Of a stretch of 46,739 nucleotides of DNA, positions 3,997 through 41,737 are shown in pieces; the stretch's first letter is position 1, and the number at the start of each line of letters is the position of its first letter. The translations under genes and the position numbers were made by a program. The stretch lies in the NCBI RefSeq assembly GCF_000332315.1, contig NZ_KB235933.1, forward strand, positions 1,123,162 to 1,169,900, in the 5' to 3' direction. This DNA is from Prochlorothrix hollandica PCC 9006 = CALU 1027. Lineage in GTDB: Bacteria; Cyanobacteriota; Cyanobacteriia; Prochlorotrichales; Prochlorotrichaceae. The notes under the pieces are model-generated. The model was not told the DNA's origin. It made no database searches and saw only the letters and a list, made by a program, of their open reading frames with translations.

Positions 3997-4016
3997 CGTG
4001 TTAGCAATTGAAGGTA

Positions 4017-4115
4017 CAGCAGCCCTAAATGGGTCGTCTAGTGTGCGCCCTCTGGGCGAACACCAGACAAAGGGTTTTAGCCATCGAGATCCTTACAACT
4101 AATTGAGGATTGCTG
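4017..4115. repeat. TA-flanked 99-bp MITE, copy 1
   Basis: The element begins CAGCAGCCCTAAATGGG and ends with the inverse of CAGCAATCCTCAATT. It is flanked by TA on both sides (4015-4016 and 4116-4117), with a GC-rich palindrome in the middle. It lies between cbtB and the His-rich gene and would be transcribed with them, so it may affect readthrough or message stability. Confidence 0.85.
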
Positions 4116-4143
4116 TAGTTATTGTAATCTCGACGGAATTAGC

Positions 4144-4344: not shown

Positions 4345-4389
4345 GGGATCTGTGCCTCGCAGATGGAATGGGCGATGAATGGGCGATCG

Positions 4390-4560
<171 letters not shown>

Positions 4561-4653
4561 CCGATCCCTCGTCCACTGACTATACCAGGCTCCCCTTCTC
4601 TTTACCAGGCTTACCGCTGAAAGCGAGACAAGATTAACGGCACAGTGAGGCGA

Positions 4654-15652: not shown

Positions 15653-15832
15653 AGTCGTCGTTTTCGGTGTAACCTAACCTCTTCTCGTCGTGTTACCACG
15701 CTTGTCGCAACTTGTACAAGGGGCGTGAGAAACTTCGCTATAATTAGTTCAGGGCTACACGATAGCCTAGCCTTAATCCTGTTCACTAATCCTGTTCACT
15801 GGAATCTAGAATAACTCTCTACCTACCGATTA

Positions 15833-15932
15833 CAGCAGTCCTAAATGGGTCGTGTGGTGTCCACCCTCCGGGGACACACCACACCAAGGGTTTCAGCCCA
15901 TCGAGATGCCTACAACTGATTTAGGGTTGCTG
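15833..15932. repeat. TA-flanked MITE, copy 2 (100 bp)
   Basis: Ends CAGCAGTCCTAAATGGG and the inverse of CAGCAACCCTAAATC, with TA at 15831-15832 and 15933-15934. It interrupts the first part of the degraded gene around it. The interior is an inverted repeat of the type TGTGGTGT / ACACCACA. Confidence 0.85.
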
Positions 15933-16111
15933 TATCAAAGATAAACTTTATATTGAAACGCGAAATGAAGATGCATTAGCACAAGCCAAAGAAATTGCAT
16001 CAAGGGCTTTTGAGGTTAGCCTTTCAAAGAATTACGGACGCATTCATGGGTTTATTTAGAACAATACTTTTCATGTAGTTTGGTTTGATCCAGCCCATAA
16101 TTTATATTCTA

Positions 16112-16210
16112 CAGCAGTCCTAAATGGGTCGTATGGTGTGCCCCCTCCGGGGGCACACCATACCAAGGGTTTCAGCCATCGAGAGCCTTACCACTGATTT
16201 AGGGTTGCTG
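16112..16210. repeat. TA-flanked MITE, copy 3 (99 bp)
   Basis: Same family and orientation as copy 2, with TA at 16110-16111 and 16211-16212. It splits the degraded gene between the codons for L-Y-S and M-N-R-G. The second TA supplies the A of the ATG at 16212. Confidence 0.85.
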
Positions 16211-16438
16211 TATGAATCGTGGCATTAACAGCCATAGGGATGCTGCAACTGTTCGCTGTTTTGGGCCTGATGAAGTGAAGCAACTGCAAGCAGTGAAGCG
16301 ACTGCAAGCAGTGATTCGAGATCTGCAAGTCGAAAATGCAGAACTGCACGAAGCATTAATGCAGTCGGAGTAGGAAGGTTATCGAAAACAGCCATAATCA
16401 ATTCACCGGGATACCATCGCCACCACAGCCTCCATCTG

Positions 16439-24670: not shown

Positions 24671-24817
24671 CTAACGGTATTTAAGCTACAGCAGTCCTAA
24701 ATGGGTCGTGTGGTGTGCCCCCGGAGGGGGCACACCACACCAAGGGTTTCAGCCGTCGCGATCCTTACAACTGATTTGGGATTGCTGTAACGGTATTTAA
24801 GCTAACGGTATTTAAGG
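24671..24817. repeat. 15-bp tandem repeat split by TA-type MITE copy 4
   Basis: CTAACGGTATTTAAG occurs three times. After the first unit's core a 99-bp MITE is inserted at 24689-24787, flanked by TA at 24687-24688 and 24788-24789. Removing it restores three adjacent units. The element lies ~130 bp before hsdR, within the 24497-24914 gap, and may affect expression of the Type I operon. I see no gene in the gap. Confidence 0.8.
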
Positions 24818-30061: not shown

Positions 30062-31641
30062 ATGAACACTGCCCCCATTATTTCTAAAGTCTGGAGTTTC
30101 TGTGATGTCCTACGGGACGATGGCGTGGGCTATGGGGATTACCTGGAGCAGTTGACCTATCTGCTCTTCCTCAAGATGGCCGATGAGTACAGCAAGCCCC
30201 CTTACAAACGCCAAACCGGGATTCCTGCCGGGTATGACTGGGAAAGCCTCCGCCCTCTACGCGGGGCTGAGTTAGAGGCCCACTACCTGGAAACGTTGCG
30301 AATCTTAGGCCAGCAAAAGGGAATGCTCGGCCAAATTTTCACCAAGGCCCAAAATAAGATTCAAGACCCAGCCAAGCTCTATCGGATCATCGACATGATT
30401 GATACAGAGAACTGGGTGATCATGGGGGCTGACGTTAAAGGCGACATCTACGAAGGACTCCTGGAGAAAAACGCCGAAGATACCAAAAGCGGTGCCGGTC
30501 AGTACTTCACCCCACGGGCACTCATCTGGGCCATGGTGGAATGTATACGGCCTGAACCTCAATGCACGATCGCCGATCCAGCCTGTGGAACCGGGGGATT
30601 CTTCCTCGCGGCCTATGACTTCCTGGTGAAGAATTACCAGCTCGATCGCGATCAAAAAGAATTCCTCAAATTTCACACCTTCCGAGGAAACGAAATCGTG
30701 GCTAATACCCGCCGCTTGGCGCTGATGAATATGTTCCTCCACAACATCGGCGACATCAGCAGCGAAAGCATGATCTCTTCCCAGGATGCGCTCATAGCTG
30801 ATAGCGGCGATCGCTTTGATTACGTGCTAGCCAATCCCCCTTTTGGTAAAAAAAGCAGCATGACCTTCACTAAAAAAGAAGGAAAGAAAAAAGAGAAGGA
30901 TCTAACGTATAACCGCCAAGATTTCTCAGCTACCACCTCAAACAAACAGCTCAATTTCGTACAACACATCCTCACCATTCTCAAAACCACGGGCCAAGGA
31001 GCCGTCGTAGTGCCAGATAACGTATTGTTTGAAGGCGGTGCCGGGGAACAGATGAGGCGAAAGCTTCTCGATAAGACCGATTTCCATACGATTCTTAGGC
31101 TTCCCACCGGCATCTTTTACAAACAAGGCGTAAAAGCCAACGTCATCTTTTTCGATAACAAACCCGCCGCCAAAGACCCCTGGACAAAAGAAGTCTGGTA
31201 CTACGATTTCCGCACCAACATCCACCTCACCCTCAAAAAGAACTCATTACAGCGGGAGGATCTCCAAGACTTTATCGACTGCTACAGCAATCCCAAATCA
31301 GTTGTAAGGATCTCGATGGCTGAAACCCTTGGTGTGGTGTGCCCCCGGAGGGGGCACACCACACGACCCATTTAGGACTGCTGTATAACCCCGAAAACCG
31401 CTACGATCGGGCAGAAACTTGGTCAGAGGCAGACCCTGAAGGACGCTGGCGCAAGTTTAGCTATGGGGAACTCATCGCCCGCGATAAAACCAGCTTGGAT
31501 ATTTTCTGGCTCAGAGATAAAAGCCTCACCGATCTGGACAACCTACCCGATCCAGATGTCCTAGCCCTAGACATCATCGAGAACCTGGAGGCCGGCCTAG
31601 AGAGCTTCCGGGCCATTGCCGGTAGGCTTCAGGCAGAGTGA
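30062..31641 (+). pseudogene. hsdM: Type I RM methyltransferase HsdM, split by a 99-bp MITE
   Basis: An N6-adenine methyltransferase with motif I D-P-A-C-G-T-G-G at 172-179 and motif IV N-P-P-F at 258-261. Native sequence runs to residue 408. There a TA-type MITE (31285-31383) inserts, adds 29 foreign residues and stops the frame at 31375. After the second TA the native frame resumes with N-P-E-N-R-Y-D-R and runs 84 codons to 31641. Excision of the MITE plus one TA gives D-C-Y-N-P-E-N-R and a 492-residue protein of normal HsdM length. The present product keeps the catalytic domain but lacks the C-terminal helices that contact HsdS and HsdR. Confidence 0.9.
31285..31383. repeat. TA-flanked MITE, copy 5, inside hsdM
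   Basis: 99 bp in reverse orientation: begins CAGCAATCCCAAATCAG and ends GGACTGCTG. TA is at 31283-31284 and 31384-31385. The total addition of 101 bp shifts the frame. The internal hairpin is TGTGGTGTGCCCCC / GGGGGCACACCACA. Confidence 0.92.
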
Positions 31642-37164: not shown

Positions 37165-37490
37165 CCAAGTCCCGGGGCAAAAAGGCGATGGGAGAGGGTC
37201 CATTTCCCTGGGGTGGGTTCACCGATTTGGGTAGGGGCAATCCCCCCGTGGTTGCCCCGGTTGGGAGTCCCCAAGAGGGTCGGCACGGGGGCGCGACCCC
37301 TACCCGAAGTCAATTGTTCCAAGGTGAAATGCACCCCGTTGATCCGGCTCTGACCTTAGGCAATTGGAGAAGGTCCATTTCCCTGGGGTGGGTTCACCGA
37401 TTTGGGTAGGGGCAATCCCCCCGTGGTTGCCCCGGTTGGGAGTCCCCAAGAGGGTCGGCACGGGGGCGAGAACCCTACCCACAGTATCTA
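37165..37490 (-). repeat. Two adjacent truncated IS66-type MITE copies, reversed
   Basis: Two blocks (about 37190-37353 and 37370-37490) match the interior of the complete MITEs in reverse: GGTCCATTTCCCTGGGGTGG, GGTAGGGGCAATCCCCCC and GAGGGTCGGCACGGGGGCG. Both lack the terminal GTAAYTATTC repeats. They fill most of the 37084-37631 gap downstream of nrdJ, and I see no gene there. Confidence 0.7.
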
Positions 37491-37631: not shown

Positions 37632-38702
37632 CTAGGTGGGTTTCACCTCCGGCATCAGACACTTGTCGGAATCACAGCCCGCTGGACCAGCTTCCTGGAG
37701 CAAACCCTGGTCATAGCGTTGCAGGGCTGCTTGGAAGTTGTCGGTTTTGCGGCGCTGGGTTACCTCGGCCAGGAGGCGATCGTAGGTGGCCTGATCCACC
37801 GGTTCAAAGGGCAGGCGGGGGAACGTTTGGTGATCATCAAAGCGGGCCAGCAGGGCTGCGGAAATATAGCCCCCATCACTGTCCACCACCTGATGCATGG
37901 CTTGGGCCAGGGCATCTACTTCGGATTCCCGGAGTTCGATCGTGGCGCTGGTGTTATGGCGGGTGTAATGGCGCTGCACCTGCATATAGAAATCGAACTG
38001 GGCGAGGGCCGAAAATTGGCTAATGTCCACCCCATCGGCTCCCGGTAAGTCTGCCCAACTGACCGCTGTGGGAATTTCCACCAACCACTCCGTACAGCGG
38101 GGATCGAAGGGATCCTGCAAGAGGTTGCCCTGGTCGTCTTTGTCCGCCTGGGAGGGCACGATGTTGTAGCCATAGTCCAAACAGGCTAGGGCCACGGGGT
38201 CATCGCGGCGGAAGGTGATGCGCCGCAGGAAACGGGCTGCTTTGGGGGGGTGCCAGCCGCTGGAAGCACCGGTGAGCAGGGCTTTGGTGCCGCTGGGCTG
38301 GACGGTGGTGCAACGGTTGGGACGACGCAGCCCATGGCGATCGCAGTAGTCCCACACCTGTTGATGCACGACTTCTCGCCAGTGGTTGAGGTAGGCGGCT
38401 TCTTCGGCCTTAAAGTGCTGGCCTTGGGCTGTGTCGGGTCGCCCTGCGGTCCACCACTGGAGCCACTCCATGCCAAAGGCATGGACGAAGAAGTCAAACA
38501 AACCGGTGAAGGAAACTCCCACAATGGGATCCCATTCCCTGGATTTGCGGTAGCGTTCTTCGGTGAACTGGTGATTGAGCAACACCGCCACGGAGAGGGA
38601 ACAGGCTTTGAAGGCTTCATCTTGGGCGGCGCGATCGTGGGGATCAATTTGGTTGAGATGAACCTCCGCCAAATTGCAATGAAAAGCAGAACCAATGATT
38701 TC
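37632..38702 (-). CDS. nrdJ: Adenosylcobalamin-dependent ribonucleotide reductase NrdJ, exon 2
   Basis: The C-terminal 356 residues of a monomeric class II ribonucleotide (triphosphate) reductase. They begin at the Glu of the catalytic N-P-C-G-E motif, followed by F-H-C-N-L-A-E-V with the active-site disulfide Cys. T-V-Q-P-S-G-T-K-A-L-L-T-G is the phosphate-binding loop. The C-terminal shuttle pair is C-D-S-D-K-C. There is no usable start: TTG at 38705 is the last three bases of a group I intron. Expression therefore depends on RNA splicing to exon 1. Confidence 0.9.
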   Translation of the reverse strand, partial: EIIGSAFHCNLAEVHLNQIDPHDRAAQDEAFKACSLSVAVLLNHQFTEERYRKSREWDPIVGVSFTGLFDFFVHAFGMEWLQWWTAGRPDTAQGQHFKAEEAAYLNHWREVVHQQVWDYCDRHGLRRPNRCTTVQPSGTKALLTGASSGWHPPKAARFLRRITFRRDDPVALACLDYGYNIVPSQADKDDQGNLLQDPFDPRCTEWLVEIPTAVSWADLPGADGVDISQFSALAQFDFYMQVQRHYTRHNTSATIELRESEVDALAQAMHQVVDSDGGYISAALLARFDDHQTFPRLPFEPVDQATYDRLLAEVTQRRKTDNFQAALQRYDQGLLQEAGPAGCDSDKCLMPEVKPT

Positions 38703-39181
38703 CAAATTGTTACCCTAGGGGCTTTTTATCCCCTAGTTCTAGGGTTTCTTAATTCACCCTAGTTCGGCGTACATTTTCATTTCTATGATCACTATTTTAG
38801 AAATGCCCCACACTCTTGGAGGGATTATAGTCTGGGAATTGCAATGGTCAATAAATTAAATTATACAGCACTCTTAAATCAGTTGTAAGGATCTCGATGG
38901 CTGAAACCCTTAGTGTGGTGTGCGCCTGGTGTGCGCCTGGAGGGCGCACACCACACGACCCATTTCGGACTGCTGTACACGGATTAACGTCTTGAAGTAT
39001 CAACGCATTAACCGATCAATTCATGCCATTTATTTATACTATTCATGGATTCATGAAGTATCCCAGGATCACCCTCTACGCTCTACGGTACTGGTGGTTT
39101 TTTAGACTGCCAGTTACCTCGGTATTAGCATCGCAGCTTTCACCGATTTTGCGGGGTTTTTAACGTGAGGCAATATCACTT
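38703..39181 (-). ncRNA. Group I intron in nrdJ (479 nt, ORF-less, with a MITE inside)
   Basis: It separates the codons for N-P-C-G and E. P1 pairs exon bases CGTGTGGT with guide GCCTCACG (39164-39171), with one U-U mismatch and the expected U-G at the splice site, across a 10-base loop. P4 is TCGGT/ACCGA (39142-39146 with 39119-39123), enclosing P5 AGC/GCT with GAA and AAT joiners. P6 is GGTA/TACC plus CTGG/CCAG. P7 is GAGGG/CCCTC (39072-39076 with 38819-38823). A TTCATG/CATGAA hairpin fits P8, and two CTAGGG hairpins precede the last base, G, fitting P9. No homing endonuclease is encoded. Confidence 0.85.
38866..38975. repeat. TA-flanked MITE, copy 6, inside the nrdJ intron (110 bp)
   Basis: Ends CAGCACTCTTAAATCAG and CATTTCGGACTGCTG, with TA at 38864-38865 and 38976-38977. 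It is longer than the other copies because the TGGTGTGCGCC motif is duplicated in the central hairpin. It lies between the two P7 strands of the intron, in a peripheral position, so folding of the core could survive. Confidence 0.88.
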
Positions 39182-41671
39182 ACCACACGGATTGAGACCA
39201 TAGCGTTGGAAACGGTGTTCCAGTTCGTCCTCAGGCATATCGGGGCAGCGCTGGCGCACCCAACCCTTGGCTTCCGCTGGGCCTAGACTGGTGTAGATTT
39301 CCAGGAATTCCTGTTTGAGGAGGGGTTCACCGAGGAGATCGGCATTGGAGCGGGCGATCGCTTCGGGGGCGTATTGAATGGCCCCTTCCCCGGAATACAA
39401 CTGTTTTTGCACCGCCGCCGTCATCTCCGCCAAGGTGGGTTTGTGGTGATAAACACGGGTGTGGTTAGCCATGCGCAAGGCATCCCGTTCCGGGTCAATG
39501 CGCCAGTTCCCATTTTCATCCTGTTGCCAGAGGTTATCTTTAGCAGTGCTGCCGAGGGTGTCATCGTGGGCAAATTGGCGAATGCCTGCGGAATTGTGGG
39601 TGAGATAGCCATCACAGTAAAAACAATGCGCTTCTTCCACCTCAATGTCATAGGTTTGCACGGAATCATAGCTCCCCAGCCCCTTAACGGTCACCGGGAT
39701 ATCGAGATCAATCTCTGACTCCGCTTGATAGCGCTCATAATTCGAGGCGACCTTGCGACTGCCCTGGAAGCCCATGGCCTGCATTTCACTGTAGGTATAG
39801 GTTTCCCGCATCATCTCACCCGGCACCGTAAAACCATGCATTTTCAGCCCTTCCCGCAGCTTCCCTTTCAGGGAGTGGGGGGCAATGATGGCGTTGTACT
39901 GGCTCTTAAAGGCAGGGATGGTGACGTTGTATTTGACTTGCCAGTGGCTGACATGAGGGCGTACTACGGTCATCCGTCCAGTAAAACCAAGACTGGAGAG
40001 AACGGCAGCGACTTGACGCGCAAATTTTGGATAAACCGTAGTCACCAGATGAGGGGGGCGATTATTGACCGCACCATCACGATCCATACCATCACTATCC
40101 ATTAAGCCAGCCAGATAAGCCGATCGCACCTCCACTGAGCCTTGCAGGATAAAGGGAGGAACCACCAACGGTTGATGGGGTTGTTTGATGTGCTGGTGGA
40201 AGTATTCTGCTAAACGGATGGACGAGCAGATGGATTTAGCGGTATTTTCTCCCTGGGTCTGGCCATGGCTAGCGGTTAGGCCAAATAACCCTAGAGCCTG
40301 ATCGATCTTGTCTTGGAGGCGTTGGCTGAGTTCAGGCTGATGGGCATTCATGGCCCACTCAACGCGCCCATAGGGTTTGTTGTGCTTGTTGCGGCCCAAG
40401 GCTACATAACCATCCCCATGGGTGAAACCCATCAACCAAGCAATCTCCGGGGTCAAAGCAGGGATGGTTAGGGGTTTGGCGGTGCGACTATGGTTCGGAC
40501 GCTGGGCTGTGGTGTCTTGGGGCAAGGTTGTGACGGTACCCGGCAGCAGTTGAGTGCTATGGAGCAGACGATCGCCCGCTGCCAAGTCCTCTAGACGTTT
40601 CCAGGTCATGCTGCCGGTGGCATTGGTGAGGACAGCCATGCGGTGCTGGAGAGTGGCACGGGGAACGGTGGCGTTAGTTTCCAGTTCGTAGACATCCTGA
40701 ATACCCTGGTCAAACTTATTAACCACGCGCCGAAAGCCAATGGGCGTTTGCACCCGATCGCCCACTTGCACCTCTTTAATCGGCACTAAACCGTGATCGG
40801 TATGGACTAACGCATCTTCCGGCAGACAGCGACGGATATTGCCAGCCACGATCGTCACCGCTGCTTGATCAATGAGCAAACAGCATTCCACGGAATTTAA
40901 CTGCCGTCCCACCGCTTTATTGAGAATGGCCACACATTTTTGATACATCTCCGGGAGCTTGACCGGGTTGGCCACCCCGCCAAAGCCTTTGAGGGCTTCC
41001 CCCGCAGGGCGCACATCATGGAGATTAACAGTTACATCAATATCTCCGTTGAAGCGATCGTCGGTGGACAGTTCCAGCAGGGTTTGGTAGGAGGAGACCC
41101 AGCCTTGGCGACTGTCCCCCACGGTGATGGTCACCTGTTGGCCGTTCACCGCCACCGTTGTCTGCTCCCGGCGCTGATCCGGCGCAGTCACCCCCAGTTC
41201 CGCTTCCACGCTCAGGCTCAGGCTATTGCGGATGGGGGGCAACTGTTGGATATAGCGCGGCTCCAAGACGGCCCCGGTGCCGCAGCCCATCATGGCCAGA
41301 TCCATCATGAGGCCAAAGGCTCGCCAGTCTTCGGCGTTGGTGCTGGTGCAGTTGTAGGCACCGGAGAAATTTTGGGGATTTTCGGCCCAAGCAGTGCCCC
41401 CAATCCAGAGCCAGCGCCCGGAGGTCAGTGCCCGTAATTGCAATTGGTTGCGGCGGATCAGATCCGCCTCATCGGGGCTAAGTTGCCCCAGCTTGATCAG
41501 CCCCTGGAGGGTGCGATCGATGACTTCCGGCCAACTTTCCCGCACGCCATCGGTTTTGCGACTATAGGTGCGATAGAAAACGGGGTTGGCGGCGGGGGCG
41601 GTCGCCGGGAAAATGTCCGCTGTCCCTGGAGTGTTGGGTTCAGCAGGGGGACGGGTGAGTTCTTGAACCAT
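39182..41671 (-). CDS. nrdJ: Adenosylcobalamin-dependent ribonucleotide reductase NrdJ, exon 1 with intein
   Basis: ATG 41671 is preferred over GTG 41737. Extein sequence has Y-N-C-T-S-T-N with the first active-site Cys, then M-G-C-G-T-G-A-V-L-E-P. It runs to G-N-I-R-R, where a 412-residue intein interrupts, resumes at S-A-G-I-R-Q-F, and ends at G-L-N-P-C-G, the thiyl-radical Cys motif, where the intron begins. Without splicing the frame adds one Lys and stops at 39176. With both removed, exons 1 and 2 give about 774 residues, close to class II monomers such as the Lactobacillus enzyme. It reduces NTPs to dNTPs using B12. Confidence 0.9.
39593..40828 (-). mobile_element. Intein with LAGLIDADG homing endonuclease in NrdJ
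   Basis: A 412-residue intein. The N-terminal splice block is C-L-P-E-D-A-L-V, with Cys1. Block B holds T-L-Q-H. Two LAGLIDADG-like motifs are L-M-G-F-T-H-G-D-G-Y-V and L-A-G-L-M-D-S-D-G-M, with acidic residues retained. The C-terminal block is Y-D-I-E-V-E-E-A-H-C-F-Y, ending T-H-N before extein Ser. All splice residues (Cys1, block B His, penultimate His, terminal Asn, Ser+1) are present, so it should splice, and the endonuclease may be active. Confidence 0.93.
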
Positions 41672-41737
41672 GAAATCTCTGGGGTTGTGTTGTTGCGTGG
41701 ACAAAACCCCCGACCCAAGGAGGGATGACCGCTTCAC

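Follow-up and report, generated by a model that had tools for sequence, protein, structure and literature searches.

A group I intron predicted between the catalytic cysteine and glutamate codons of nrdJ in Prochlorothrix hollandica has same-site relatives in cyanobacteria and Bacillaceae

The profile, pairing and comparative data indicate that nrdJ, the only ribonucleotide reductase gene found in Prochlorothrix hollandica PCC 9006, is interrupted by a group I intron that would be spliced out to restore the catalytic N-P-C-G-E motif, and that this intron belongs to a family inserted at the same site; we assign this explanation as a whole a probability of about 94%. The gene lies on the minus strand of the window, i.e. 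the whole analysed stretch of 46,739 nucleotides, to which all coordinates refer unless a contig is named. An initial annotation of this DNA had placed a group I intron in nrdJ; the family membership of the intron, an intein in exon 1 and a MITE inside the intron were absent from it.

Exon 1 ends with CTC AAT CCG TGT GGT at 39182, exon 2 starts with GAA ATC ATT GGT at 38702, and the insert of 479 nt between them (39181-38703, final base G) falls between the codons for G and E inside the N-x-C-x-E triad, so that N and C are encoded by exon 1 and E by exon 2. The position first proposed, with exon 1 running to N-P-C-G and exon 2 beginning at E, is correct to the base. In a whole-genome profile search, nrdJ appeared as three colinear pieces (profile 22-280, 279-379 and 379-723) of TIGR02505, the monomeric adenosylcobalamin (B12)-dependent ribonucleoside-triphosphate reductase (RTPR):

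39182 to 41737, minus strand: nrdJ (RTPR) exon 1, TIGR02505 22-280 and 279-379, in the open frame 39176 to 41737 (translation)
39593 to 40828, minus strand: intein of 412 aa (CLPEDALVH...YLTHN), placed by Pfam domains, the colinear TIGR02505 break 280/279 and coordinates
38703 to 39181, minus strand: predicted group I intron, 479 nt, terminal G, placed by its ends, same-site relatives, pairings, covariation, folding and the Rfam match of an orthologue
37632 to 38702, minus strand: nrdJ exon 2, starting E-I-I-G, TIGR02505 379-723, 416 bits

Joining the exons and removing the intein yields a protein of 796 aa with a single continuous TIGR02505 match (profile 22-723 of 724, 780 bits). In 17 sampled relatives the TIGR02505 match is unbroken over the intron site, and these sites are therefore taken to be empty, i.e. 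intron-free. A sequence search with the RTPR fragment against solved structures gave no match at 0.001.

The intein in exon 1 is in frame and carries a LAGLIDADG-type endonuclease domain; it is matched by PF05204 (6e-7) and PF14528 over the cut-off, with PF14890 (Intein_splicing) below its cut-off. Open-frame, intein-like breaks in NrdJ were also seen in other cyanobacteria (G004, G005, G017, G028, G030, G035, G036 and others) at profile 376-378 (at N-P-C-G) or 387 (between FH and CNL), i.e. 0-9 residues from the intron site, and in the nrdJ genes of L022, L050 and L099 the intron and an intein-like insertion occur together.

An intact nrdJ or nrdAB elsewhere, named in the initial annotation as a finding that would speak against its reading, was looked for and not found in the 99%-complete genome: profile searches, which an unknown reductase type would escape, detected no class I subunits (PF02867, large; PF00268, small), and likewise no class III enzyme (PF13597) and no second TIGR02505 gene. 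Because nrdJ is the sole reductase gene found and exon 2 by itself is without the N and C of the catalytic triad, DNA synthesis and dNTP supply in this cell very probably depend on splicing of the intron and of the intein, as judged from the genome sequence. In the mechanism that we propose, (i) the folded intron RNA would bind guanosine at P7, (ii) cleavage would follow the GGU that ends P1, and (iii) the exons would be joined with P10 positioning GAA, by which N-P-C-G-E would be restored. The exon-1 intein would also have to splice, after translation. A cobalamin riboswitch (59 bits) is present at 4372-4580 on the minus strand, about 33 kb from this B12-dependent reductase gene.

The predicted fold of the intron comprises the following elements:

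39182 to 39189, minus strand: P1 5' strand (exon CGUGUGGU), pairing invariant in 28 of 28 relatives
39172 to 39177, minus strand: P10 guide GAUAUU, pairing with exon 2 GAAAUC at 5 of 6 positions
39164 to 39171, minus strand: internal guide sequence GCCUCACG (P1 3' strand), pairing with exon CGUGUGGU
39151 to 39156, minus strand: P3 5' strand CCCCGC, with 3' strand GUGGGG at 38811-38806, 6 of 6 pairs doubly changed in relatives
39087 to 39146, minus strand: P4-P5-P6 domain, from window pairings and folding
39077 to 39081, minus strand: P7 5' strand GCGUA, with 3' strand UACGC at 38771-38767 and S-element AAAAUGUACGCC
38819 to 39076, minus strand: P7.1 (GAGGG/CCCUC), P7.2 and the enlarged P7.2 loop, from alignment and folding
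39066-39061 with 38837-38832, minus strand: P7.2 CUGGGA/UCCCAG, from alignment and folding
38778 to 38805, minus strand: P8 hairpin, the site of the endonuclease ORF in long relatives, from folding and relatives
38715 to 38762, minus strand: P9 and P9.2 hairpins, with 97% and 99.5% of cells paired in relatives

The sequence directly shows both intron boundaries, the P1 guide together with its 5'-site U.G pair, the core of P3 and P7, the P10 pairing and the final G. P1 consists of seven pairs, including the splice-site U.G, and one conserved U.U mismatch, P10 contains one A.A mismatch, and the intron ends TTTG. Pairs are formed throughout P1 (7/7), P3 (6/6), P4 (5/5), P5 (3/3), P6 (3/3), P7 (5/5), P7.1 (5/5), P7.2 (4/4), P9 (7/7) and P9.2 (7/7), and at 5/6 positions of P10, and unconstrained free-energy folding recovers 55 of 56 nested core pairs. 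The P1 guide with U-G pair, P4-P5-P6, P7 and terminal G that had been described at the outset are all found in the window sequence. GAGGG/CCCUC was considered as P7 and rejected, since in the alignment it falls at P7.1, with GCGUA/UACGC as the true P7. In subgroup IA, P7.1 and P7.2 lie between P7 and P3 and P2 is lacking; because P7.1 and P7.2 are present and P2 is absent, the nrdJ intron is, on its predicted pairings, of subgroup IA.

The nrdJ intron shares the core P3-P9 architecture of the Rfam model Intron_gpI (RF00028), and this model misses the window copy, which was unreported both at the gathering threshold and, with chance matches only, at E up to 10 in a 600-base stretch; the case was therefore built on relatives. 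The covariance-model match anticipated by the initial annotation was obtained for a same-site orthologue from Lentibacillus halodurans (L046; 81.3 bits, E 2.9e-21, cut-off 50), though not for the window copy, and the orthologue alignment puts P3, P7 and P8 on the same elements as our hand-drawn structure. The Rfam group I model can thus miss introns of essential genes, and such genes may consequently be annotated as broken. The only RF00028 match in the P. hollandica genome is the group I intron of tRNA-Leu(UAA) (L001 1480-1830; by eye from the tRNA halves), and the Lentibacillus contig stretch bears, further upstream, another group I intron (L046 589-913, RF00028 59.5 bits).

Using the insert DNA as query, same-site copies were retrieved from cyanobacteria, and 22 of 386 sampled cyanobacterial genomes have the intron after N-P-C-G (flanks counted by hand). 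Scanning named genomes for guide and target (CCGTGTGGT, a gap of 8-15, GCYTCACGTWAAA) returned at least 115 stretches; the 80 listed divide into 45 from cyanobacteria and 35 from Bacillaceae, the latter, among the matches listed, from Lentibacillus, Neobacillus, Bacillus, Anoxybacillus, Oceanobacillus and others. As for the exons, those of Bacillaceae code for a class II reductase that is clearly different (VVATNPCG, then EQPLAPYSVCNLA after the intron site). Both ends could be placed for at least 89 complete same-site introns of 176-1219 nt, that of the window included, and all 89 placed introns have a terminal G followed by GAA or GAG.

Covariation was assessed in an alignment of 28 same-site introns, the window intron not among them, against the hand-drawn structure including the P3/P7 pseudoknot and P10. 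In this alignment 90.1% of cells are paired and both sides have changed at 46 of 70 pairs; the covariation score is 0.489 compared to 0.156 in shuffles, none of 500 shuffles scored as high, and sliding the partner strand gave only 0.067-0.142. Compensatory changes are massive in P3, P5, P7, P7.1 and P9. P7, the element that RF00028 also takes as P7 in the Lentibacillus orthologue, is 100% paired with both-side changes at two pairs (variants GCGUA/UACGC, GACUA/UAGUC and GCAUA/UAUGC), P7.1 is 100% paired with both-side changes at 5/5 pairs, P7.2 is 95% paired, and P6 is GG/CC in cyanobacteria and CC/GG in Bacillaceae. MAFFT shifts P4, P6a and P8 of the Bacillaceae by a few columns relative to cyanobacteria, which lowers the covariation values for these helices. 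P10 changes with exon 2: in cyanobacteria GAAATC occurs with GATTTT or GAAATT with AATTTT, and in Bacillaceae exon 2 GAACAA occurs with guide TAGTTT, suggesting that one P1 target has been kept and P10 retuned. In total, the pairings, covariation, terminal G, P10 and Rfam match to the same-site orthologue uphold the group I identity first proposed.

Of the 89 introns, 86 have an in-frame stop among the first six codons downstream of the 5' splice site, where shuffles lead to an expectation of about 31; in the window it is the second intron codon (AAG TGA), which would halt ribosomes before the core. Bacterial group I introns are known to have such early stops, which have been proposed to aid folding by ribosome stalling (PMC3984707). 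In six phage-like contigs of IMG/VR, divergent nrdJ genes have the family's guide and target following N-P-C-G. As far as sequence comparison can tell, a single family of group I introns sits at this codon boundary of class II reductase genes from cyanobacteria and Bacillaceae, and several phage-like contigs also have a member there. A related group I intron was also observed in an apparent rtcB (RNA ligase) gene of Nostocales (L006, L036, L038, L041-L044); its core matches that of the nrdJ intron, its guide differs, and the L006 copy has a LAGLIDADG-like ORF.

The open-frame list contains no ORF in the window intron, which agrees with the initial annotation that it carries no endonuclease; the window copy is not in itself an endonuclease-bearing mobile intron. 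Long same-site introns (about 1.07-1.22 kb) have an ORF of about 311-325 aa in P8, and those of cyanobacteria and Bacillaceae are about 30% identical with a common K-P-D-F...E-(I/V)-K. These ORFs weakly match Phage_endo_I (4e-5), NUMOD3 and, by profile, T7 endonuclease I (4e-4). A predicted structure model (mean pLDDT 75, pTM 0.40) had no Foldseek match at E 0.001, its weak fold matches being to nucleases of the PD-(D/E)XK type, among them T7 endonuclease I, Vsr and I-Bth0305I. On these weak matches the P8 ORF is a putative PD-(D/E)XK-type endonuclease, which would be the likely means of homing in the family members that have it; the Anabaena intron L079 has a GIY-YIG ORF instead. In a tree of 120-nt intron cores, which are too short to prove transfer, phage-like contigs are mixed with Bacillaceae. 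Homing with transport by phage is the likely route of intron spread.

The P7.2 loop of the window intron contains a MITE:

38866 to 38975, minus strand: MITE with TA flanks at 38977-38976 and 38865-38864 and terminal inverted repeats CAGCAGTCCGAAAT / ATTTAAGAGTGCTG
4015-4117, 15831-15934, 16110-16212, 24687-24789, 31283-31385 and 38866-38975: MITE copies in the window, with TA ends

The MITE is 110 bp long (intron positions 207-316) and is arranged as TA, CAGCAGTCCGAAAT ... ATTTAAGAGTGCTG, TA; the palindrome GTGTGGTGTGCGCCC lies inside it. Of the copies elsewhere, twenty were aligned; they are about 99-104 bp long, with TA on both sides in nearly all, and the palindrome loop of the intron copy is longer by 11 bases. 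Across the 5.6-Mb genome, where the element is present in several hundred copies, the terminal motif CAGCARTCCKAAAT was counted 571 times, and not once when read backwards. The TA duplication presumably reflects a parent of the IS630/Tc1 type. The window as a whole has six copies of the roughly 103-bp element, the intron copy included, and at 37170-37480, downstream of nrdJ, there are two near-identical copies of another repeat (GGTAGGG...CCCGTGCCGACCCTCTTGGGGACTCCCAACCGGGG...). The intron has no IS605-type tnpA/tnpB ORF as in an IStron, its passenger being the MITE. All pairs predicted for MITE bases in the folded intron stay within the MITE, suggesting that on the P7.2 arm of the ORF-less window copy this genome-wide element would form a closed stem that lies outside an intact core. 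The MITE could slow splicing in vivo.

The strongly extended P7.2 arm of the window copy, together with the position of nrdJ as sole reductase gene and the retention of the intron at one site in two phyla, could be taken to mean that dNTP supply is switched through regulated splicing, the long arm serving as sensor. We find this quite unlikely, given that the P7.2 loop is conserved among relatives in neither sequence nor length, that half of it is a generic MITE, and that mobility and neutrality explain the distribution. It is less likely still that the MITE and the enlarged loop abolish splicing, making the intron a decayed group I intron and nrdJ a pseudogene: the MITE is there and Rfam gives no match on the window copy, but the core helices, guide, P10 (5/6) and terminal G are all intact, both exons are open with full-length profile coverage, and the profile searches turned up no further reductase gene. 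A group II intron or another insertion has practically no chance of being correct, for although group II introns also occur in cyanobacterial reductase genes (PMC12702839; also pointed out in the initial annotation), the insert has no Rfam group II match, no GUGYG start, no domain V and no reverse transcriptase, its P3/P7 pseudoknot is backed by covariation and by the RF00028 match in the orthologue, and the group I pairings rule this reading out.

Returning to the same-site intron, its parts may be combined into one scenario in which a single lineage, spread by phage and by the action of a PD-(D/E)XK-type endonuclease, colonised the same catalytic codon boundary in two phyla with P10 retuned to each exon 2, and in which the MITE-enlarged arm makes the supply from the sole reductase of this organism depend on splicing conditions. 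Taken jointly, these elements form a speculative chain that we consider unlikely to hold in full.

Similar arrangements have been described. According to papers citing the work, the RIR (ribonucleotide reductase) gene of Nostoc punctiforme PCC 73102 is interrupted by a group I intron that itself harbours an IS element (Meng, Zhang and Liu 2007, J Bacteriol 189:2150; cited in PMC12702839 and PMC3984707), and so resembles the present case, by the description in those papers, in being a group I intron of a cyanobacterial reductase gene with a transposable element inside, the passenger being an IS there and a MITE here. Nostoc punctiforme NIES-2108 (L107) has a 288-nt intron at the site of the window intron. 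In Candidatus Thiomargarita nelsonii, dsrA contains a group IA2 intron bearing a MITE (PMC4853749); as in nrdJ, a MITE of a genome-wide family lies in a group I intron of a protein gene, whereas the gene is a different one and introns and MITEs are likened by description. The nrdE gene of phage Twort has group I introns (Landthaler 2002, cited in PMC3653736), which, as described in the citing paper, likewise interrupt a reductase gene close to conserved residues, an endonuclease being present in one of them, although nrdE is a phage class I reductase in contrast to the cyanobacterial class II nrdJ. In 2009 the RNRdb curators put the number of group I introns in reductase genes at more than 100 (PMC2795772). 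Given this survey and the 2007 Nostoc punctiforme intron, the kind of intron found in the window was already known. A literature search, outside of which many journals lie, returned no paper on this intron in Bacillaceae nrdJ or on the PD-(D/E)XK-type endonuclease of the nrdJ intron.

The interest of the finding lies in the distribution at the same codon in two phyla. Nearly every DNA-based cell needs a ribonucleotide reductase, and here the sole nrdJ would be readable only after RNA splicing between the codons for the catalytic Cys and Glu and protein splicing upstream. With members in cyanobacteria, Bacillaceae and phage-like contigs, the same-site family is a large natural series that can be aligned and is suited to studying the passage of a group I intron between phyla with a fixed P1 target and a changing P10, the acquisition and loss of endonucleases, and the capacity of a single loop to absorb secondary insertions.
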